Source: Methanosarcina sp. Ant1
GTDB lineage: Archaea > Halobacteriota > Methanosarcinia > Methanosarcinales > Methanosarcinaceae
DNA length: 33,076 nucleotides
NCBI GenBank assembly: GCA_001714685.2
Contig: MDTP02000009.1
Coordinates: 1 to 33,076 of the forward strand
Direction of reading: 5' to 3'
The notes under the pieces are model-generated. The model searched no databases, had not been told where the DNA came from, and saw only the letters and a program-made list of their open reading frames with translations. Of the stretch, positions 7,552 to 18,743 are shown piece by piece. Positions within the stretch are counted from its first letter, which is position 1. Each line of letters starts with the position of its first letter. Position numbers and translations under genes: made by a program.

Positions 7552-7917
7552 ATGAAAACAACTTGTGAAATTATGGTACAGAAAGTCTTGCCTGCAATCC
7601 GGGCCGAGCTTTCGAGGACGATGATTTTAGAGCATAGGTGCACGCAGCAGGATGTGGCGGATACTCTGGAACTCTCAAGGGCTGCGGTATCCCAATACGT
7701 GAGTGAAAAGCGTGGGGCTGAAGTTGATTTTTCTGAGGAGACGCAAAACGAAATTCGAAAATTTGCACTCATACTTTTAAACGGAGGCTTATCTTCTCAG
7801 GAAAAGGCAAAAGGCATGTGCGATATTTGCAGCTTTGTTCAGAACTCCGGCTGGCTGTACAGGAATGCTCCTGAAGCTAAAGCCTGCATCATATGTGAGG
7901 ACATGGATTCAAAGTGA
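7552..7917 (+). CDS. Helix-turn-helix regulator with C-terminal cysteine pairs
   Basis: A 121-residue predicted DNA-binding protein. Residues 31-51 (TQQDVADTLELSRAAVSQYV) form a classic helix-turn-helix of the Xre/Cro type. The C-terminal half has two cysteine pairs, C90/C93 (MCDIC) and C112/C115 (ACIIC), which could bind zinc or an iron-sulfur cluster; the metal is a guess. Its TGA stop overlaps the GTG start of nre (GTGA at 7914-7917), so the two are translationally coupled. That coupling suggests a role tied to DNA damage, but the sequence gives no direct proof. Confidence 0.8.
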   Translation: MKTTCEIMVQKVLPAIRAELSRTMILEHRCTQQDVADTLELSRAAVSQYVSEKRGAEVDFSEETQNEIRKFALILLNGGLSSQEKAKGMCDICSFVQNSGWLYRNAPEAKACIICEDMDSK

Positions 7918-9140
7918 ATAGCACATTATGTATTAAATGTAAAGGGAAAGGACTTTGCGGACGTCCTCGTTGCCCAATCCTTGAAAAATTTAAGTCCTTA
8001 CAATCGATTGCTCCTGTAATCTCAGGAGATTCTGTTTTTGGAGCATCTCCACCTGCTCTTTTCGTCGGAAGCTATGGTTACCCGAGAGTTTCCGCAGGCC
8101 CTCTGATCCCTCCGCTAGCAACGGAAAATGAAGCTTCTTTTCTTGAAGAGCCTTCAGCTTGGGCAAACATGCAGATTGAAGATATAATTTCCATGCGTTC
8201 CCGTATGGTCAGGGCAAATACAAATCTGCATATAAAAGATGCACGCAGCAAAGAAAATCCCCTACTTGCAAAGGCTCAGGAACTTGCTCTATCCAGAAAG
8301 CCAGTAGATACTGAAGCCTGGTTTTTCAAAGCTCCAAAACATGAACTCAAATTCGATGCCTTGCTCATGCCTATGGGTCCATCAGGCCTTGTTAAAAACT
8401 TTGAGCTCACAGAAAACCCGAACGTCCCGAGAAAGGTGGATTACCTTGTTTATGACACTGACGCCCTGGCAAAAGATGCTGTGATTGAACTCTATAAAGG
8501 TAAGATCTCAGCTGAACACATTACACGCCTGTTTTCAATTGGCCTGCTTGGAAAAGAAAGGAAAATCGTGCCCACTCGCTGGTCAATAACAGCTGTGGAT
8601 GATATGGCAGGAAAGGAACTTACAGATCGCATAAAGGATTTTCCCCTGGTTTCTGACATTCTGCTTTTCAGCGGGACCCATTTTGGGAACCGCTTTGAAA
8701 TCCTTATTCTTCCGCGGGCTTATTCCTTCGAGCTGATTGAAATCTGGCTCCCAAAAGCAATCTGGTCTGGAGAATCAAGCTGGATCGGAGAAGACAGTGA
8801 AGGTCTTTACGGGAAAAAAGGGTATTCCCCCCTGGCAGGAGGTTATTATGCCTCAAGGCTGGCTGTGCTTGAGTATCTTACGGAAATTAGAAGGCAGGCT
8901 TCGGTTTTCGTGCTCAGGGAAATAACTCCGGATTACTGGGCTCCCCTTGGGGTTTGGGTGGTTCGAGAGGGCATGAGAAGTGCTCTTCGAAATCCCCCAA
9001 AACAGTTCGATTCTCTTGAAGCAGCAGTTTCAGATCTTGCAGGCAGGATGAGCACGCCGAAAGCAGAATGGATGCAAAAGGCAAGTATGCTTTCTGACTT
9101 CCAATTTCAAACTACTCTGGATTTCTTTTTAAAGACATAA
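7914..9140 (+). CDS. nreA: Archaeal DNA repair protein of the Nre family
   Basis: A 408-residue protein of the archaeal Nre family, which is linked to repair of DNA damage together with PCNA. The N-terminal zinc motif has C6, C9, C15 and C20 and is followed by a PPALFVGSYGYPRVSAGPL block typical of the family. The last residues, QTTLDFFLKT, fit a PCNA-interacting peptide (Q-x2-L-x2-FF type at the extreme C-terminus). The start is GTG at 7914, overlapping the stop of the upstream regulator by four bases. The letter A in the symbol follows the common single-copy usage in euryarchaea and is less certain than the family. Confidence 0.9.
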   Translation: MNSTLCIKCKGKGLCGRPRCPILEKFKSLQSIAPVISGDSVFGASPPALFVGSYGYPRVSAGPLIPPLATENEASFLEEPSAWANMQIEDIISMRSRMVRANTNLHIKDARSKENPLLAKAQELALSRKPVDTEAWFFKAPKHELKFDALLMPMGPSGLVKNFELTENPNVPRKVDYLVYDTDALAKDAVIELYKGKISAEHITRLFSIGLLGKERKIVPTRWSITAVDDMAGKELTDRIKDFPLVSDILLFSGTHFGNRFEILILPRAYSFELIEIWLPKAIWSGESSWIGEDSEGLYGKKGYSPLAGGYYASRLAVLEYLTEIRRQASVFVLREITPDYWAPLGVWVVREGMRSALRNPPKQFDSLEAAVSDLAGRMSTPKAEWMQKASMLSDFQFQTTLDFFLKT

Positions 9141-10416: not shown

Positions 10417-10449
10417 CCCCATTTGAGTGCATAACACTTGATAGTGGGT
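10417..10449 (+). promoter_or_regulatory. Hairpin just before the AAA ATPase start
   Basis: CCCA and TGGG close an outer stem. TTGAGTG and CACTTGA form an inner stem that includes G-T pairs, with a CATAA loop. Its end is 28 bases before the ATG at 10478, so it may affect translation or act as an operator. Confidence 0.35.
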
Positions 10450-10477: not shown

Positions 10478-11758
10478 ATGTCAAGCACCATACTAGACAT
10501 CGTAGAATTGCTGCTGACCGCAGAGATCTATAATCGTTATCCAGAACTGGATGTAAACGATCTTCCTAAGAATATTCGAAAAAATTATTGGAGCAGCACA
10601 GAAAAAACGGTTCCCAAACCCATTACAGCTACATTTATCCGGATTGAAAAACTGTACGGGATTAAGGACATAGAAAAAAGCGTAAGAAACGTTCCCTTCA
10701 TAGTTACTGACAAGTCTCGTTTTGAACTTCGTTTGAGCGCTTTCGAACTTGCCACAGAATGGTTTGAAAAGCAGGAAGGTTCCAAGGAAAGGATTGAAAG
10801 TAATCCTGTCCTGGCCTATTACTACGGAGAAATTGGAAAGATTCAAGTTGCAAATTACGCGCTTGCAAAGGCAAAAATAAGGCCTAAGGAAGTTGACAGG
10901 GAATGGATAGAATCCCTCATAGCAGATATCAAGAAGGAAGACAAAAGCGAAGAAATGCTCAAACTCGTGGCAATTATCGCTCCTGAAGATGTAAAGCAAA
11001 AAATCAAGGACCTTGTGCTCACCGAAGAACAGGAGAGTGAAATTGAAAAGATCATGAAAGCCATAGAGCATAGGGAATACCTGAGGGAAATCGGCCTGCA
11101 TGACATAGGGAAACTTCTTTTTGTCGGGCCACCTGGAACCGGAAAAACCTCTGTTGCCCGTGCCCTTTCAGAACGGCTCTCCATTCCCTTTGTCGAGGTC
11201 AAACTCTCTATGATAACAGACCAGTATCTTGGAGAGACTGCAAAGAACATTGACAGAGTCTTCTTGCTCGCAAAGAAATTAAATCCCTGCATTCTTTTCA
11301 TAGATGAGCTGGATTTCGTAGCAAAAGCAAGAACATCCGACGAAAATGCTGCCATCAAGAGGGCAGTCAATACCCTCCTTAAGGCCATCGACGAAATCAG
11401 CCTTGTGGAGCATGGAGTCCTGCTGATTGCCGCGACCAACCACCCCCGCATGCTTGACAGCGCAGCATGGAGGCGTTTTGATGAAATCGTTCATTTCCCT
11501 CTTCCTGACCTTGAAATGCGTAAAAATATCCTGGATATTGTAACCAAGCACATCGAAGGAGACTTTGACACAGGGGAAATTGCAGAAATGACAGAGAGTT
11601 ATTCAGGTTCTGACCTGCGCATAGTCATCAGGGAAGCTGTCCTGAGCGCTCTTCTGGAAGAACGCAAAGTACTCACACAGATGGACCTACTGGAAGCTGT
11701 GACTTCTTTTGATGGAAGGGCTGATCTCAAATCCGAAGATTACGACAGGAAGAAGTAA
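10478..11758 (+). CDS. AAA family ATPase
   Basis: A 426-residue ATPase of the AAA class (Cdc48/proteasome-ATPase type). The first 200 residues are a charged, helix-rich domain with no family I recognise, probably the substrate- or partner-binding part. The ATPase core has Walker A GPPGTGKT (about residues 217-224), Walker B CILFIDELD (about 271-279), sensor-1 region IAATNHPRMLD and an arginine-finger-like AWRRFDEIVHF. A C-terminal helical lid follows (SGSDLRIVIREAVLSALLEE). It lacks the coiled coil and HbYX tail of the proteasome ATPase PAN. The stop is two bases before the ATG of the metallo-hydrolase, so the two form one unit. The substrate is unknown. Confidence 0.9.
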   Translation: MSSTILDIVELLLTAEIYNRYPELDVNDLPKNIRKNYWSSTEKTVPKPITATFIRIEKLYGIKDIEKSVRNVPFIVTDKSRFELRLSAFELATEWFEKQEGSKERIESNPVLAYYYGEIGKIQVANYALAKAKIRPKEVDREWIESLIADIKKEDKSEEMLKLVAIIAPEDVKQKIKDLVLTEEQESEIEKIMKAIEHREYLREIGLHDIGKLLFVGPPGTGKTSVARALSERLSIPFVEVKLSMITDQYLGETAKNIDRVFLLAKKLNPCILFIDELDFVAKARTSDENAAIKRAVNTLLKAIDEISLVEHGVLLIAATNHPRMLDSAAWRRFDEIVHFPLPDLEMRKNILDIVTKHIEGDFDTGEIAEMTESYSGSDLRIVIREAVLSALLEERKVLTQMDLLEAVTSFDGRADLKSEDYDRKK

Positions 11759-11760
11759 AC

Positions 11761-12501
11761 ATGAGGCTAACACTGCTGGGGACTGGCGATGCTGTCGGGA
11801 CCCCTAAAATAGGATGCAACTGTCCGGCATGCGAGGATGCCAGGATGGGGGGAAAGAGTCAGCGCCTTCGTTTTTCTATCCTTGTGGAGTCCGAGGGGGG
11901 TAAAATCCTTATAGATACCAGCCCTGATCTCAGACAGCAGTTTCTCAGGCAAAATCTTTCCTGCATAGATGGAGTGATCTGGACTCATGGACATTACGAC
12001 CATTACTCCGGATTCGGGGAGTTCTATCGGGTTCAAAACAAAGTTGATGTTTATGGAATTCCCGAAACTCTCGATTACATAAACAATTATGTCTCTTTCC
12101 TTAAACCCAGGTATCATTATGTGAAGCTCTGTGAGCCATTTGAAATTATCGGGCTGCAGTTCACCCTCTTCAAGGTCGACCATCCCCCTGTGGAAGTCCC
12201 TACAGGGGTTATAATCCGCGAAAGGGATACAAAAGTAGTGATTACCGGAGATACAAGCGCGGGAATTCCCAAAACCAGCATGGAGCTAATGAAAGATCCG
12301 GACCTTCTGATTGCCGATGCTATAGTCCCCCCGCATATCCATATCAAAAAGCATATGAATTCAGAAGAGGCTATGGCACTTGCAGAGAAACTCAATGCAA
12401 AAGAAGTAGTTTTGACTCACCTCAGCCACCTCTTCCGCCCTCATCATATTGAATCGATATTTTTACCCCTTGGATATGACGGGCAGGTCTTTGAGTTATA
12501 A
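11761..12501 (+). CDS. PhnP-like metallo-beta-lactamase fold hydrolase
   Basis: A 246-residue MBL-fold hydrolase. The metal site is visible as T75-HGHYDH (H76, H78, D80, H81), H141, the GDT motif with D164, and TH220-LSH223. The N-terminal GCNCPAC motif (C19, C21, C24) is the zinc-binding signature of the PhnP/phosphodiesterase branch, so a phosphodiesterase acting on a cyclic or nucleotide-like substrate is plausible. It lies two bases after the AAA gene and has no ribosome-binding gap, which indicates coupled expression. It is not a typical tRNase Z, since the exosite arm is absent. Confidence 0.88.
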   Translation: MRLTLLGTGDAVGTPKIGCNCPACEDARMGGKSQRLRFSILVESEGGKILIDTSPDLRQQFLRQNLSCIDGVIWTHGHYDHYSGFGEFYRVQNKVDVYGIPETLDYINNYVSFLKPRYHYVKLCEPFEIIGLQFTLFKVDHPPVEVPTGVIIRERDTKVVITGDTSAGIPKTSMELMKDPDLLIADAIVPPHIHIKKHMNSEEAMALAEKLNAKEVVLTHLSHLFRPHHIESIFLPLGYDGQVFEL

Positions 12502-12638: not shown

Positions 12639-15600
12639 TTAAGAGACTGTGATATATCCGGCCATGGTGTTAGTGTTACTACCCTGGGTATTTCTCACAG
12701 TCAGGGAAACAGTATATCTTCCTTTTTTAGTGTATGTATGTAAAGGGTTCTTGACTGTTGAAGATGTACCGTCTCCAAAACTCCACCTCCATGAAGTGGG
12801 CAATCCCGTACTTCTTTCAGTAAACTGCACCCTCAATGGCGCTTTTCCTGAAGTTGGAGACGCCGAGAATGCACCGGCTGGAGTTCTCAGGGGAGCTCCG
12901 ACGCTTATATATCCTGATCTAGTTAACATATTACTTCCAGCGGCATTCCTTGCTGTCAAGCTGATTGTATATTTTCCGGCTTTACTGTATGTGTGATCCG
13001 GATTTTGCTGTGTTGAAGTACTCCCATCCCCAAAAACCCAGTTCCATGAAGTTGGTGATCCTGTACTCCTGTCAGTGAACGTGACTTTCAATTGTGAGTT
13101 TCCTGAGGTTGGAGATGCCGAGAAAGCAGCAACAGGGGGTCTTAGCGCGTTTGCGACAATATAATTCGACCTTGTTACCGTGTTACTACCCGCGGCATTC
13201 CTTGCTGTTAGTCTGACAGTGTATCTCCCTGTTTTACTGTAAATGTGCACCGGGTTCTTCTCTATTGAAGAGGTCCCGTCACCAAAGCTCCAACTCCATG
13301 AAACGAGTGACCCGGTACTCCTGTCAGTAAAAGTGACATTCAACGGGATACTCCCGGAAGTGGGAGTTGCAAATAAAGCAGCTAAGGGGGGTCTTAGCGC
13401 GTTTGCGACAATATAATTCGACCTTGTTACCGTGTTACTACCCGCGGCATTGCTTGTTGTTAATCTAACAGTGTATCTTCCGGCTTTACTGTAAGTGTGC
13501 ACAGGGTTCTGCTCTGTTGAAGATGTACCGTCTCCGAAACTCCACGCCCATGAAGCAGGTGATCCACCAGTGCTCCTATCTCTGAACAATACTGTTAACG
13601 GTGCGGTTCCGGAAGTCAAATTCGCAGAGAGAGCCGCAACAGGTGCTCTCAAAGTCGCGGCAGTGATATAACTCGTCTTTCTTACTGTATTGCTGCCTGC
13701 TGCATTATTCACTGTAAGCGTAACCGTATAACTTCCAGCCCTTAAATAAGTGTGCGCTGGATTCTTTTGAATCGAATTTGTTGTTCCGTCTCCAAAATTC
13801 CAGTTCCATGAAGTAGGTGTGCCTGTACTCGTGTCAGTAAAGAGGACATTCAGAGGCGCATTTCCAGAAGTAATATTGCTACTGAAACTTGCTACAGGTG
13901 GTACTGGTTTTTCTGAGACATTGATCGTAACATCCTTTGACGCTGTAGTGTAACTTGCATAATCAGTAGGTGTGAAATCGACATGTAATGTATTCGTACC
14001 TGTGTTCAGTACAGTTCCTGCTGTTGGAGTATAGACAAATGTTCCAGGTACCGAAGCAGATGCAGTTAACTGAGTGCTGCTCAATTCTGTTCCATAGATT
14101 ATGCCGGCAGGGTTACTCCAGGTAATTGTAGGAGTCGATTTCAGGACATTAATTGTAACATCCTTTGACGCTGTAGTGTAACTTGCATAATCAGTAGGTG
14201 TGAAATCGACATGCAATGTCTTCGTACCTGTATTCAGTACAGTTCCAGCTGTTGGAGTATAGACAAATGTTCCAGGTACCGAAGCAGATGCAGTTAACTG
14301 AGTGCTGCTCAATGCTGTTCCATAGATTATGCCGGCAGGATTACTCCAGGTAATTGTAGGAGTCGATTTCAGGACATTAATTGTAGAAAGTTTTGAATCT
14401 GTACCGTTTCCATTGCTAGCTGTCAGGTTAACATTATAGGTACCTGCTGCAGAGTAAGTATGCGTTGGATTCTGCTGTGTTGAATAGGTGCTGTCCCCAA
14501 AGTCCCAGTTCCACACAGTCGTATTCTGAGAAGCATCTATAAACTGGATAGAAAGAGTAGGATAGCTGCCAGTTATATTACTGCTGAAGTTTGCAGTGGG
14601 AAGTATCGGTGTTGGCACATACAACTCTGATTTTGAAGCATACCTCGTATTTCCGTCCAGGCCTATGTTGATCCTGTTTCCATTGGGTTCCGGTTCGTTA
14701 GAACAATCCGACAAAGGATATCCGGTATCAATGCACTGGGAACTTACACTGTCATTTACCCAACCGCTCCCATCCCAACGACCTGCTTTTGACCTCAGGT
14801 GATAGTCGTATTTACTTCTGTCTGCGTATTGAGGATCTGCTGCTATATCCGAAGTTGATGCCTGAACATCTATAAAGTCGCCACCTGTGTTGTTATAGAA
14901 ACAGTTGCTCTGCAGTACAAAAGAGTGTGTGTCTGTAAGCAGGTTATATGTTCCATATCCATTTCCCCCGGCTGCTGATGTTCGAGTGTTCGTTATAATG
15001 TTGTTTCTTACTGTGACCATATACCCCGAGCCAGCTGGACCAGGAGAATACACATTATTCTGTACAATACCAGCCCCATATGAGCCATCAATCACGTTGT
15101 TTTCAATGAGAGCATTGAATCCATCGGATAAGATCCCGCCTATTAATTGGGTATTGGACTTAGTTCCGGTATCATAGATCTGATTGTGATGAATATGGAC
15201 ATTTGCAGAGGAAGTGGAATAAGATCCTGATCCGAAAACCCAGATCCCGGCGAGAGCAGTCCTGTATACTATGTTATTATACACCTCAATATCATCCATT
15301 GCAGGTGTTCCATACTTCTGGATCTCAATTCCTGCGCCTCCAGCATTTCTGGAAGTAATAGTGTTATCGTAGAAACTTGCATGGTTTGTATTATACAGCC
15401 TGAGACCACTATTCGTCCTGCAGGTTATCTTATTATTGTAAGCTTCCACGTTTGAGCAACCACTGGCATAAAGAGCATCATGGCCCAACTCGTATATCGT
15501 GTTGTTATATAACTTTATATTCGAGCAGGAATCTGTTTTCAACCCGTCGCCGTGGTTGTTAGTCAGGTACATATTACATACACTTATATTCTGACATTTT

Positions 15601-16061
15601 ATCAGGTGGATCATGTTGTAGTAATTTTGTCCGCTAATAACGTTAGTATTATTTTCCCTATTCCCATCAATTGTAAAGCCCTGGATGGCAATATCATGGA
15701 TGCCAACGCTCCTTTCTTCAATAATTGGCTTATAAGCTTCCCAATTAGCATTGTTGACAAGCTTGATTGTTGCACTGGAATCGCCTTCAAGAGTCGTATT
15801 GCTGCCAATCAGAAGAGTATCGTTTATGAAATATGTGAACGGACCTTTGAGGTAAACAGTTGTGTAACTGGAATTTTCTGCCACGAACTGAAGGGCCTCG
15901 TTAATCTGTAAGTCCGCTTCTGTCGCATTACAATTAAAATCACCACTCCCATCCCCAGAAACGTAGATAATCGGCGCGGAACTTACACACAAAACAGAAG
16001 GAATATCTGCAAGAATAAGGAAGCCCACAAAGAAAAGGATTTTTAACTTTCGATTCAACAC
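12639..16061 (-). CDS. Secreted beta-helix and PKD-repeat surface protein
   Basis: A 1140-residue exported protein. A signal peptide (LKILFFVGFLILADIPSVLC) is followed by a right-handed beta-helix of about 450 residues, with many short N-N-x-I repeats of the NosD/pectate-lyase type. Then come one PKD domain (WNWDFGDST near residue 520), two near-identical 76-residue Ig-like repeats beginning TITWSNPAGIIYGT (about 570-715), and five more PKD domains spaced about 85 residues, each with a W-x-W-x-FGDG core. No C-terminal anchor is visible, so it may be released or bound non-covalently. The frame opens at a GTG at 16070, but AGGTGAT overlaps that codon, so GTG at 16061 (or TTG at 16058) is the better start. 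PKD domains suggest adhesion or cell-envelope assembly. Confidence 0.85.
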   Translation of the reverse strand: MLNRKLKILFFVGFLILADIPSVLCVSSAPIIYVSGDGSGDFNCNATEADLQINEALQFVAENSSYTTVYLKGPFTYFINDTLLIGSNTTLEGDSSATIKLVNNANWEAYKPIIEERSVGIHDIAIQGFTIDGNRENNTNVISGQNYYNMIHLIKCQNISVCNMYLTNNHGDGLKTDSCSNIKLYNNTIYELGHDALYASGCSNVEAYNNKITCRTNSGLRLYNTNHASFYDNTITSRNAGGAGIEIQKYGTPAMDDIEVYNNIVYRTALAGIWVFGSGSYSTSSANVHIHHNQIYDTGTKSNTQLIGGILSDGFNALIENNVIDGSYGAGIVQNNVYSPGPAGSGYMVTVRNNIITNTRTSAAGGNGYGTYNLLTDTHSFVLQSNCFYNNTGGDFIDVQASTSDIAADPQYADRSKYDYHLRSKAGRWDGSGWVNDSVSSQCIDTGYPLSDCSNEPEPNGNRINIGLDGNTRYASKSELYVPTPILPTANFSSNITGSYPTLSIQFIDASQNTTVWNWDFGDSTYSTQQNPTHTYSAAGTYNVNLTASNGNGTDSKLSTINVLKSTPTITWSNPAGIIYGTALSSTQLTASASVPGTFVYTPTAGTVLNTGTKTLHVDFTPTDYASYTTASKDVTINVLKSTPTITWSNPAGIIYGTELSSTQLTASASVPGTFVYTPTAGTVLNTGTNTLHVDFTPTDYASYTTASKDVTINVSEKPVPPVASFSSNITSGNAPLNVLFTDTSTGTPTSWNWNFGDGTTNSIQKNPAHTYLRAGSYTVTLTVNNAAGSNTVRKTSYITAATLRAPVAALSANLTSGTAPLTVLFRDRSTGGSPASWAWSFGDGTSSTEQNPVHTYSKAGRYTVRLTTSNAAGSNTVTRSNYIVANALRPPLAALFATPTSGSIPLNVTFTDRSTGSLVSWSWSFGDGTSSIEKNPVHIYSKTGRYTVRLTARNAAGSNTVTRSNYIVANALRPPVAAFSASPTSGNSQLKVTFTDRSTGSPTSWNWVFGDGSTSTQQNPDHTYSKAGKYTISLTARNAAGSNMLTRSGYISVGAPLRTPAGAFSASPTSGKAPLRVQFTERSTGLPTSWRWSFGDGTSSTVKNPLHTYTKKGRYTVSLTVRNTQGSNTNTMAGYITVS
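13135..13199 (-). repeat. Exact 65-bp repeat between PKD units, copy 1
   Basis: Identical to 13387-13451, with an offset of 252 bp (84 codons). It covers a PKD-unit boundary (the SNYIVANALRPP region). Confidence 0.85.
13387..13451 (-). repeat. Exact 65-bp repeat between PKD units, copy 2
   Basis: Partner of 13135-13199. Identity at silent positions points to a recent duplication or conversion between neighbouring PKD units. Confidence 0.85.
13931..14388 (-). repeat. Two tandem 228-bp Ig-like coding repeats
   Basis: The units at about 13931-14158 and 14159-14388 are offset by 228 bp (76 codons) and nearly identical in DNA. Visible differences include TGTATTCG/TGTCTTCG and AATTCTG/AATGCTG. 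Each unit encodes TITWSNPAGIIYGT...SKDVTINV, similar to bacterial MBG-type Ig-like repeats. Confidence 0.85.
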
Positions 16062-16314
16062 AACTATCACCTGTTAATTTCATTCAATAAAATTTTGAAT
16101 AACTTTATTAAAAAATACGTAACCGAACGCTTAATATTTGACGATAAGTTCAGATTGGGCCCGGTCATTTATTTATTCAAAATCATGCACTTTGAAATCT
16201 TTAAGTGGATCCACGTCTGGTAAAGCCATTATCACCTTCAATATCGATTTTTTATATTTGACCTGGCAACTTTATAACTAAATGATTATTTTTAACCAAA
16301 AAATAGTAAGTGTC

Positions 16315-18282
16315 TTACTTTTTTCTATACAGAAATGCACCAAGCAGGCACGCGACTCCGCAAACCATTTCAAAGCCAGATATGCCTGGAATTTCTTTCT
16401 GTTTATTTTCCGGTCCTTTATTCCAGGCATTGGATTCATTAATTGCTCTATTCTTGGATTCAAGTTCCTTTTCCGTTTCATTATTTCTATTCGGAACAAA
16501 AGTTTGCGAAATTTCTTTAATCTCAACATTGCTTGCGGGTTCAGAAGATATACCGGCAACCCTATTTCCACTGCTACTTCTGTGGCTGCGCCCCTCAATG
16601 CTGCTTCCATCGGTTTCATCAGCACCGATACTTCCGTTGTCTCCGGAGTTATTTTCACTTCCCTCTGTGACATTTATTGTAGCAAGTTTTGAGGCAGTTC
16701 CATTTCCATTGCTCACTGTCAGATTCGCGACATAAGTTCCGGGAATTATATACATATAAGCCGGATTTTTATCGGAGGATTCAGACTGCCCATTGTTATC
16801 AAAATCCCAGCTCCAGGAAATTGCATTTTCCGAAAGGTCAGTAAACTGGACTGTAAGAGGAGCAGGACCCTGTGTTATATTGGCGCTGAAGTTTGCTACA
16901 GGAAGTATTGATTGTTCTAAAACAGTAATTGTAGAAAACACTGAATCCGTACCGTTTTCATTGATTGATGTCAGGTTAACGGTATAATTTCCTGGATCTA
17001 TGTACATGTGAACCGGATTTACATATACCGAGTCCGTATATCCATCGTTCTCAAAGTCCCAGTTTCTTTCGGCTGCATATTGAGAAAAGTCGGTAAATTG
17101 GACGAAAAGGGGAGCCTTACCCTGTGTGGTATTGGTACTGAAGTTTGCTGCAGGAAGTACAGGCACTGGATTTTGAGCAGGAAACGCTAGAGGCAGATAG
17201 TCGATATTTACTCCATTAAGAGAATATGGTTTTTCGGAGATACCATCTCCATTGGCATCAAAATGAGTCTGGGAAAAACCATCTCCATCAGGTCTTGCCC
17301 AACAGTTTCCACCGATGTAGGAGCCGCCTATGATATTTTTCCCTATAGTTCTGCTAGTATTCCAAGTGTTTTGTTCTTGCTGATTTCTTTGCAGATTTAC
17401 ATTTACCGTGTTATTAAAATAATTATTGTAAATGAGGTTTGCACCAGTATAATCCTTATAACCGTATTCATTAAAGAGTATAGTATTACCTGCAAAGATA
17501 TAGCCGCCGCCAATGCCGCCTACATTAATTCCGACGTCATTTTTCGTAATCGTATTGTCTTCAACTTGAGTTCGGATTTCTGAGGGGGTTGCATCTCCAT
17601 TTCCGAGATTAATTCCGGCTCCGCAGTTTAAAAGCTCATTGGCACTGATAGTGTTTTCAAAACCTTCCATATAGGTAATTCCGTTTTGACAGTTTGAAAT
17701 TTCGTTGTTGCTTACAATATTTTTACTACCTTCCCTAAAAGTAACTCCTTCTTGACAATTTGAAATTTTATTGTTACTAACAATATTTTCAAAACCTTCC
17801 GAGACTGCTATTCCATATTGACAGTTTGAAATTTCATTGTTATTCGCTACGTTGGATGCACTACCCGTTGGTATGTCAATGCCAGATACAGAATTCAATA
17901 TTTTATTATTCTCAATCCGACACTCTCCCATTCTGTCAATAACTGCAATTCCACCGTCACCATCATTACCCTTTATAGTGAAACCGTTAATAGTTATTTT
18001 AGATGCCAAAATAGTGAAACGAGGACCCTGTATTATCGTATCGTCAGGGTTACCTGATTGAGACCTAATTGTAAGACCATTGGTATATGCAGAGATTTGC
18101 TCCGTATAAGTGCCAGGTTCTACAATGATTAAATCGCCGGGGTTTGAATTATTAATTGCAGCCTGTATAGAGTCACCGTTATGCACAACAAACTCAGCTG
18201 CAGCTGCTCCGCTGCCTGTAATAGCTATGTTGACTACAAGAGCCACTGCAAACAATATTATTCTACTTTTATTTCGTTCCAC
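16315..18282 (-). CDS. Cell-surface NosD-like beta-helix protein with two PKD domains and a sorting tail
   Basis: A 655-residue exported protein. The signal peptide (IILFAVALVVNIAITGSGAAAA) is followed by a beta-helix domain with 23-residue repeats of the form ISNCQ-x-GI-x(6)-EN-x-VSNN. Two PKD domains follow (cores RNWDFENDG near residue 405 and WSWDFDNNG near 490), then a Ser/Gly/Asn-rich linker. The tail IPGISGFEMVCG...FLYRKK has a PGF-like motif, a hydrophobic stretch and basic end residues, as in archaeosortase substrates (PGF-CTERM type). It is therefore probably processed and lipid-anchored at the cell surface. I prefer GTG at 18282, with GGGTGGT about seven bases before it, over an ATG 39 bases upstream. 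It lies next to the other PKD protein on the same strand. Confidence 0.85.
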   Translation of the reverse strand: MERNKSRIILFAVALVVNIAITGSGAAAAEFVVHNGDSIQAAINNSNPGDLIIVEPGTYTEQISAYTNGLTIRSQSGNPDDTIIQGPRFTILASKITINGFTIKGNDGDGGIAVIDRMGECRIENNKILNSVSGIDIPTGSASNVANNNEISNCQYGIAVSEGFENIVSNNKISNCQEGVTFREGSKNIVSNNEISNCQNGITYMEGFENTISANELLNCGAGINLGNGDATPSEIRTQVEDNTITKNDVGINVGGIGGGYIFAGNTILFNEYGYKDYTGANLIYNNYFNNTVNVNLQRNQQEQNTWNTSRTIGKNIIGGSYIGGNCWARPDGDGFSQTHFDANGDGISEKPYSLNGVNIDYLPLAFPAQNPVPVLPAANFSTNTTQGKAPLFVQFTDFSQYAAERNWDFENDGYTDSVYVNPVHMYIDPGNYTVNLTSINENGTDSVFSTITVLEQSILPVANFSANITQGPAPLTVQFTDLSENAISWSWDFDNNGQSESSDKNPAYMYIIPGTYVANLTVSNGNGTASKLATINVTEGSENNSGDNGSIGADETDGSSIEGRSHRSSSGNRVAGISSEPASNVEIKEISQTFVPNRNNETEKELESKNRAINESNAWNKGPENKQKEIPGISGFEMVCGVACLLGAFLYRKK

Positions 18283-18743
18283 ACAAAAACCACCCAAATA
18301 AAAGATTTTTTTAATGTCCAAATTTTAATTTGTTATCAAAAAGTAAGCTTCTGGCTTTTAGTGTATTTAGGATCTGAAGATTATATTTTTAAAAGTATGT
18401 ACCAAATATTTTGAGCGTTCTTAAGTTATAGTAGCGGTTTTTATTCATTGAGATTAGAAATAATAACTAAAATTATTTTTGTAGCCATATAATCTTAACT
18501 TCTTTATATTTTTTACTGATGTGGACAATGGAATGCGATGTAAGAAAATATATGGATAGTATGTAATGTTTAACTGATTTTACAGAGCAAGAGGTACTGG
18601 TGAGCCTTCTCAAAAACTGGTGTTTTCCAGAACATTTGCACGCTCGCATTTTTTTTAGCAATGTCATTAGTATTCCTAAGAAAGTACACGCTGTTTTTTA
18701 TTGAGATGTTATCTCTATATATCCCGGGGACCCAAAACCATTT
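18283..18743. other. Divergent intergenic region before the photolyase gene
   Basis: 461 AT-rich bases. It holds the promoters of the surface-protein gene (minus) and photolyase (plus; TATA-like CTATATAT near 18715). A plus-strand frame at about 18567-18704 reads TDFTEQEVLVSLLKNWCFPEH..., lacks a start codon and is not assigned; it could be a gene relic. Confidence 0.4.

Follow-up and report, generated by a model that had tools for sequence, protein, structure and literature searches.

An AAA ATPase gene and the gene of a putative PhnP-type hydrolase form a real, old and vertically inherited two-gene operon in the phylum of Methanosarcina sp. Ant1. The pairing is not obligatory. In presumed haloarchaea, the ATPase of this operon carries a His/Asp-rich C-terminal tail, which is the new observation of this work. 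A search of the open literature for the ATPase-hydrolase pair found no description of it. The pair was analysed in a 33,076-nucleotide stretch of DNA (contig MDTP02000009.1, positions 1 to 33,076 of the forward strand), hereafter called the window.

Layout and spread of the gene pair

The features considered here are as follows.
10478..11758, + strand: AAA ATPase gene (426 aa), an ORF with Pfam and NCBIfam profile matches
11761..12501, + strand: gene of a putative PhnP-type metallo-beta-lactamase (MBL)-fold hydrolase (246 aa), an ORF with a dinuclear site and a Cys3-His zinc site
10478..11035, + strand: ATPase N-terminal domain (residues 1-186), without a Pfam family, as modelled with AlphaFold
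ATPase protein motifs: Walker A GPPGTGKT 217-224; Walker B D276-E277; pore loop Y250-L251-G252-E253; Arg-rich WRRFD 331-335
10279-10290/10304-10315, no strand: perfect 12-bp inverted repeat, operator-like, between the divergent purC and the ATPase gene
10418..10448, + strand: predicted 5'-leader hairpin, its sequence kept in Methanosarcina, no covariation support

Bases 11759-11760 make up the whole gap between the two ORFs, both of which lie on the + strand, so the sequence-only reading was right to place the genes two bases apart. Presence of the pair was counted in 294 genomes, all from the window's own phylum, at thresholds of E ≤ 1e-50 for the ATPase and E ≤ 1e-35 for the hydrolase, with a hydrolase profile applied later. 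A full-length ATPase was found in 226 of the 294 genomes. By E-value, the hydrolase was present in 210 of the 294, which left 18 ATPase genomes without it; the profile then added five of the six f15/f28 genomes among those 18, with the hydrolase adjoining the ATPase, and G018 was still negative. Results showed that, after the profile, 213 of the 226 ATPase genomes had both genes, and the hydrolase total came to about 215. The 13 ATPase genomes that lacked a hydrolase orthologue were G018, G019, seven genomes of family f4 and four of family f9, and 11 of these 13 are drafts with a completeness of at most 91%. The hydrolase occurred without the ATPase in two genomes (G006 and G071; 2/215), and searching these two with the N-terminal part of the ATPase gave no match. 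Weak hydrolase matches in G019, G027, G031 and G037 (E 5e-6 to 4e-9) were partial and not orthologue-like.

Linkage was read from the 100 genomes that had both coordinates among the matches listed. The hydrolase lay directly downstream of the ATPase, on the same strand and within 1.5 kb, in 94 of these 100, and the gap was 100 bp or less in 90 of them. The genes were far apart in six genomes, all of family f6 (G004, G057, G081, G112, G122 and G141). A protein scan with one genome per species returned 80 ATPase loci from Methanosarcinales or their kin, at 56-92% identity; one source among them is named just "Euryarchaeota archaeon" and occurs twice. The hydrolase was directly 3' of the ATPase in 77 of these 80 loci, and the exceptions were L031, whose sequence stops ~0.8 kb past the ATPase, and L077 and L078, which continue for more than 2 kb. 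Across the 24 families whose regions were read, the window included, adjacency was seen in 22; the two exceptions, f4 and f9, yielded no hydrolase. Of the 28 presumed haloarchaeal loci, 23 had the hydrolase within the stretch read and five did not. These results bear out the earlier claim of a two-gene module and show that the pairing is not limited to a few strains.

The families in which one partner is missing share a neighbour. In f4 and f9, aIF2-gamma directly follows the ATPase (L120, L124 and L152) and the hydrolase is missing; in f8, a hydrolase without the ATPase likewise precedes aIF2-gamma (L123 and L151). These arrangements around aIF2-gamma suggest that parts were lost separately from a seemingly older cluster. 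Since ATPase and hydrolase also occur apart, an obligate complex between them is unlikely.

In the window, the pair is flanked on the 5' side by the divergent purC (SAICAR synthetase) and, beyond purC, an archaeal Nre gene, and on the 3' side by large PKD surface proteins. The region 7552-9140 holds the Nre (archaeal DNA-repair) gene, which has a GTG start, and a 121-aa ORF that has no Pfam match, looks HTH-like by eye and overlaps the start of the Nre gene; in Methanosarcina loci, this ORF and the Nre gene stay together near purC. Two surface-type PKD-repeat proteins were noted, one with a Disaggr_assoc domain (12639-16070) and one with a NosD-type beta-helix (16315-18321). The ATPase is single-copy in the window's own genome, where the remaining matches cover the AAA domain only, and its nearest named relatives are from Methanosarcina. 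A mobile or viral origin of the locus was rejected: no plasmid match was obtained at 1e-60, and viral contigs held one distant relative of each protein (30% and 32% identity).

The sequence-only reading had also described structured DNA upstream of the pair. The perfect repeat and the predicted hairpin stood, and conservation of structure did not. The window contains one occurrence of the inverted-repeat pattern, where 0.02 would be expected. Among 11 Methanosarcina relatives, seven retain 10-11 of the 12 repeat pairs and four retain 7-8, so that the repeat is perfect in the window alone; the exact pattern, in which the spacer was too short, gave 0 matches over 223 loci. The hairpin stretch folded slightly better than shuffles (z about -1.4), no covariation above shuffles was detected in the repeat or the hairpin helix over 12 Methanosarcina loci, and an Rfam search of the upstream DNA gave no match. 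A structured RNA leader was rejected on these three grounds. On the simplest reading, the inverted repeat would be an operator or a promoter element that the divergent purC also uses.

The ATPase and the hydrolase

By its sequence, the ATPase belongs to the classical AAA proteins, where it forms a clade of its own, apart from PAN and Cdc48. The window protein matched PF00004 (132 bits) and AAA_lid_3 (42 bits), with the AAA domain running from residue 213; matches to NCBIfam AAA models began near residue 158-181, apart from some weak ones that began further N-terminal. Across 68 ATPase homologues, Walker A, Walker B and WRRFD were invariant. The YLGE pore loop, a motif type that marks peptide-threading AAA proteins, was present in 25 of 25 AAA domains from across the phylum. 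AlphaFold modelled the whole ATPase with a pLDDT of 86, and in structure comparison its AAA domain had the same fold as PAN and p97.

This fold, together with a proteasome beta gene nearby in three loci, might point to another regulator of the proteasome in the manner of PAN, Cdc48 or AMA, which share with the ATPase a classical AAA domain with an aromatic pore loop. Such a role is very improbable, and proteasome-regulator identity was rejected because the HbYX C-terminus was present in 0 of 146 ATPase orthologues, with a His-rich tail instead in presumed haloarchaea, and because the family forms a separate clade. In a tree with the PAN and Cdc48 domains of the same genome, the stem of the ATPase family measured 3.4 changes per site, and the split between ATPase and paralogues had a support of 93/98, just below the star threshold, with some paralogue branches long. 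One of the two PANs (L082) was left out of this tree, as its Walker motif lay outside the pattern used. With the PAN model NF003069 (cut-off 500 bits), the window ATPase scored 162.1 bits and the PANs of the same genome 587.9 and 548. AMA, an archaeal proteasomal ATPase, is reported to have a C-terminal HbYX motif (PMC4192671). Compared with AMA (by description only), PAN and Cdc48, the present ATPase has no HbYX, belongs to its own clade and has an N-domain that probably differs.

The top-scoring AAA models were those of IetA, the AAA ATPase of the anti-phage system IetAS (PADLOC IetA 209 bits; NCBIfam IteA 182.6 bits), and the best one spanned residues 157-415. An anti-phage IetAS identity was rejected, since the similarity is confined to the AAA part, the score of 182.6 bits lies below the cut-off of NF042959 (IetA, 510 bits) and the archaeal ATPase has a core, single-copy distribution. 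The match runs from residue 157 onward, so the N-domain of the archaeal ATPase is unmatched; the partner also differs, being the protease IetS in IetAS and here an MBL-fold hydrolase, which is another fold.

The N-terminal domain proved as unrecognised as had been claimed. Residues 1-186 of the window protein matched no Pfam family, even with the threshold relaxed to E 0.1, Pfam searches on the N-domains of 68 ATPase members returned just scattered weak matches, and the sole match of a PDB profile search was a designed repeat protein (E 3.5e-4). Prediction of its structure, which had been suggested as a check, gave a model of the domain alone (AlphaFold, pLDDT 87) whose fold matches were weakly winged-helix-like. 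Foldseek against the PDB found nothing at E ≤ 0.001, the best being DtxR/IdeR winged-helix proteins at a weak E of 0.085; a second structural aligner placed AF1382 first (Z 5.7, rmsd 2.5 over 73 residues) and ArsR and MarR-type winged helices next. Z values of this size often arise by chance, and the winged-helix core that the model may contain, from residue 1 up to about residue 105, is therefore a suggestion only.

The window hydrolase has the MBL fold (PF12706, 97.4 bits), with the motifs HTHGHYDH (residues 74-81 region), H141, D164, H220 and GCNCPAC. In an alignment of 47 homologues, made of tblastn-matched stretches from across the phylum with some ends cut, C19, C21, C24, H76, H78, D80, H81, H141 and D164 were invariant, and so were K197, H198, H220 and H223. 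The complete metal site and the GCNCPAC motif noticed earlier are thus confirmed. Every curated NCBIfam model scored below its cut-off, including the best match, the GPMC-system MBL (NF038231; 132.1 bits vs 360), the PhnP model TIGR03307 (95.6 vs 272.25) and the RNase Z model TIGR02651 (54.7 vs 292.95).

The best PDB profile matches of the hydrolase were 6b9v (E 1.9e-43), the Brucella entries 3py5/3md7 and PhnP, the cyclic ribose phosphodiesterase of the C-P lyase system (3g1p, E 7e-28). With PhnP it shares the MBL fold, the KH motif and both sets of metal ligands, namely the dinuclear HxHxDH site and the zinc site of three Cys and one His. It differs from PhnP in that its score is below the PhnP cut-off and no phn genes were among the scanned window neighbours. 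The Brucella beta-lactamase-like protein (PDB 3md7, 3py5) and 6b9v belong to the same MBL-superfamily subgroup, the Brucella protein being without two of the three zinc-site Cys in the alignment. In the Brucella study, the protein is reported to have two manganese ions and bound GMP/AMP, the authors suggest nucleotide hydrolysis, and the neighbours listed are metG and tatD, with no AAA ATPase (PMC3169410). We infer from the conserved active site that the hydrolase is probably a PhnP-type dinuclear-metal phosphodiesterase, whose substrate may be a small cyclic phosphodiester or a nucleotide. Homology supports the sequence-only reading in its pairing of a phosphodiesterase-type enzyme with a remodelling ATPase whose N-domain is unrecognised.

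Neighbouring genes and the functions they suggest

Which genes flank the pair depends on the lineage, and most of them are core genes; naming by profile covered gene-cluster representatives only. In other families, Met aminopeptidase and another M24 peptidase recur upstream, and further recurrent neighbours are aIF2-gamma with PIN_9 and Rpb7, aIF2-beta, Rpb11, and proteasome beta with FttA. These genes would suit a module linked to translation or RNA, in which the ATPase would remodel a complex associated with the ribosome or an initiation factor, and the hydrolase would trim either an RNA end or a product that bears a cyclic phosphate. Immediately upstream, 14 loci have Met aminopeptidase (M24); on the downstream side, nine have aIF2-gamma, with PIN_9 and Rpb7 after it in several, and three have the proteasome beta and FttA genes. 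RNase Z and RNase J, moreover, belong to the MBL superfamily. However, such neighbours are core genes that sit in long, conserved clusters, none of them is among the scanned window neighbours, and coenzyme-biosynthesis genes are neighbours in several families too. An RNA-binding domain was not found, and the RNase Z model fell far short of its cut-off. We consider a translation or RNA role unlikely. The RNA-processing system proposed from the sequence likewise received no direct support. The closest enzymes have small cyclic phosphates or nucleotides as their substrates.

Another set of neighbours raises the possibility that the missing MptB-type enzyme (EC 3.1.4.56) is this hydrolase. It would open 7,8-dihydroneopterin 2',3'-cyclic phosphate in place of the Methanocaldococcus HD-domain enzyme, and the ATPase would be a bystander or a helper. 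MptB is an HD-domain protein and the hydrolase has the MBL fold, so just a non-homologous replacement is possible. PhnP-type enzymes open cyclic phosphates, which fits this reaction. An MfnF-like gene (TIGR03123, methanofuran/H4MPT-linked) is directly 3' of the hydrolase in six loci of families f6, f27 and f31 (L133, L136, L148, L150, L153 and L156), an MptE-like gene adjoins in L123 and L151 (f8) and is a few genes off in L132 (f26), and MptA lies 3-10 kb off in many genomes of f5, f13, f16 and f22-f24 and near the pair in L027. The proximity of MptA may, however, be one ancestral arrangement. MptA was present in 282 of the 294 genomes, far more than the roughly 215 with the hydrolase, which leaves at least 65 MptA genomes that must rely on some other means; in a weak test that clustered the HD-domain proteins of ten genomes, without an MJ0837 reference, no HD family was confined to hydrolase-lacking genomes in the manner expected of a replacement. 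A different candidate, HVO_A0533, is named in PMC3087415. Taken together, we find the pterin role decidedly improbable. As a side observation, MptA (TIGR00294) gave two matches per genome in G000 and in G009, G019, G029 and G039 (family f11).

The pair may also be co-transcribed without any physical coupling, as two housekeeping genes in one operon that are needed in similar amounts. The ATPase would then act as a general unfoldase or disaggregase, and the hydrolase would clean up nucleotides on its own. The lineage-dependent, mostly core neighbours agree with this, and so does the finding of each gene alone in some genomes, which means that neither needs the other everywhere. But the linkage in 94 of the 100 genomes listed and in 22 of 24 families, kept though the other neighbours change, is more than ordinary operon drift, and a metal-type tail on the ATPase suits a metalloenzyme partner. 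Mere co-transcription is in our view somewhat unlikely.

The His/Asp-rich tail and a possible metal-loading role

An HDHDHDH-like tail ends the ATPase in seven presumed haloarchaeal families (f10, f15, f20, f21, f28, f30 and f33). In each of the 28 orthologues read from these families, HxH occurred two or more times within the final 40 residues. The tailed loci are L125, L128, L130, L131, L134, L135, L137, L157 and L226-L245, plus L132. The last 40 residues contained on average 5.9 His in the 28 presumed haloarchaeal orthologues, whereas the mean was 0.22 in the 138 other orthologues; one of the 138, L132 (family f26), has a similar tail and is the tree neighbour of the seven families (90/99). 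Outside the presumed haloarchaeal branch and this relative, the His-rich tail is absent. The control genes were 254 acidic ORFs of the same genome group, taken from twenty 20-kb stretches with our own gene calls (longest ORFs with ≥13% Asp+Glu): none had two HxH in the last 40 residues and 11 had one. None of 16 PAN/Cdc48 paralogues from six genomes (G060, G072, G089, G134, G180 and G220) had even one HxH in that segment. His/Asp-rich tails of the HDHDHDH kind are typical of metal-handling proteins. By its composition, the tail looks metal-binding and hints that the ATPase services the adjoining metal enzyme.

Tentatively, we favour the possibility that the ATPase remodels the hydrolase or loads it with metal, probably along with a few other clients. 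The ATPase, presumably hexameric and peptide-threading, would recognise a client with its winged-helix-like N-domain and pull a segment of it with the pore loop, and in the haloarchaeal branch the metal would be supplied from the His/Asp-rich tail. Coupling between ATPase and hydrolase is suggested by the gene linkage and the tail; the client relation, the delivery of metal and the substrate of the hydrolase are likewise put forward as the possible shape of such a system. Several findings weigh against metal loading. Thirteen of the 226 ATPase genomes are without the hydrolase and two of the 215 hydrolase genomes without the ATPase, the genes are far apart in the six f6 genomes, and five of the 28 presumed haloarchaeal loci are without a hydrolase in the stretch read. 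The tail is kept in G018, a genome without the hydrolase, and does not extend beyond the haloarchaeal branch and its relative. In addition, neither E. coli PhnP nor the Brucella enzyme is known to depend on an ATPase. The ATPase must have at least one further role, as it survives in genomes without the hydrolase.

A bolder form of the metal-loading proposal would make the family an undescribed class of AAA metallochaperones. A threading ATPase with a new N-domain would insert or strip the metal of a dinuclear phosphodiesterase encoded next to it, the His/Asp-rich tail would serve as a metal store in haloarchaea, and the client would possibly close the pterin gap. We regard this form as quite doubtful.

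A single-copy pair that is kept across most of the phylum, and whose two proteins both lack a curated name, likely has a basic role. A pterin role, if true, would fill a step recorded as missing in haloarchaea. The His-rich tail offers a concrete, testable handle on function, and either outcome on whether the metal or the activity of the hydrolase depends on the ATPase would tell what a core AAA family of archaea does.
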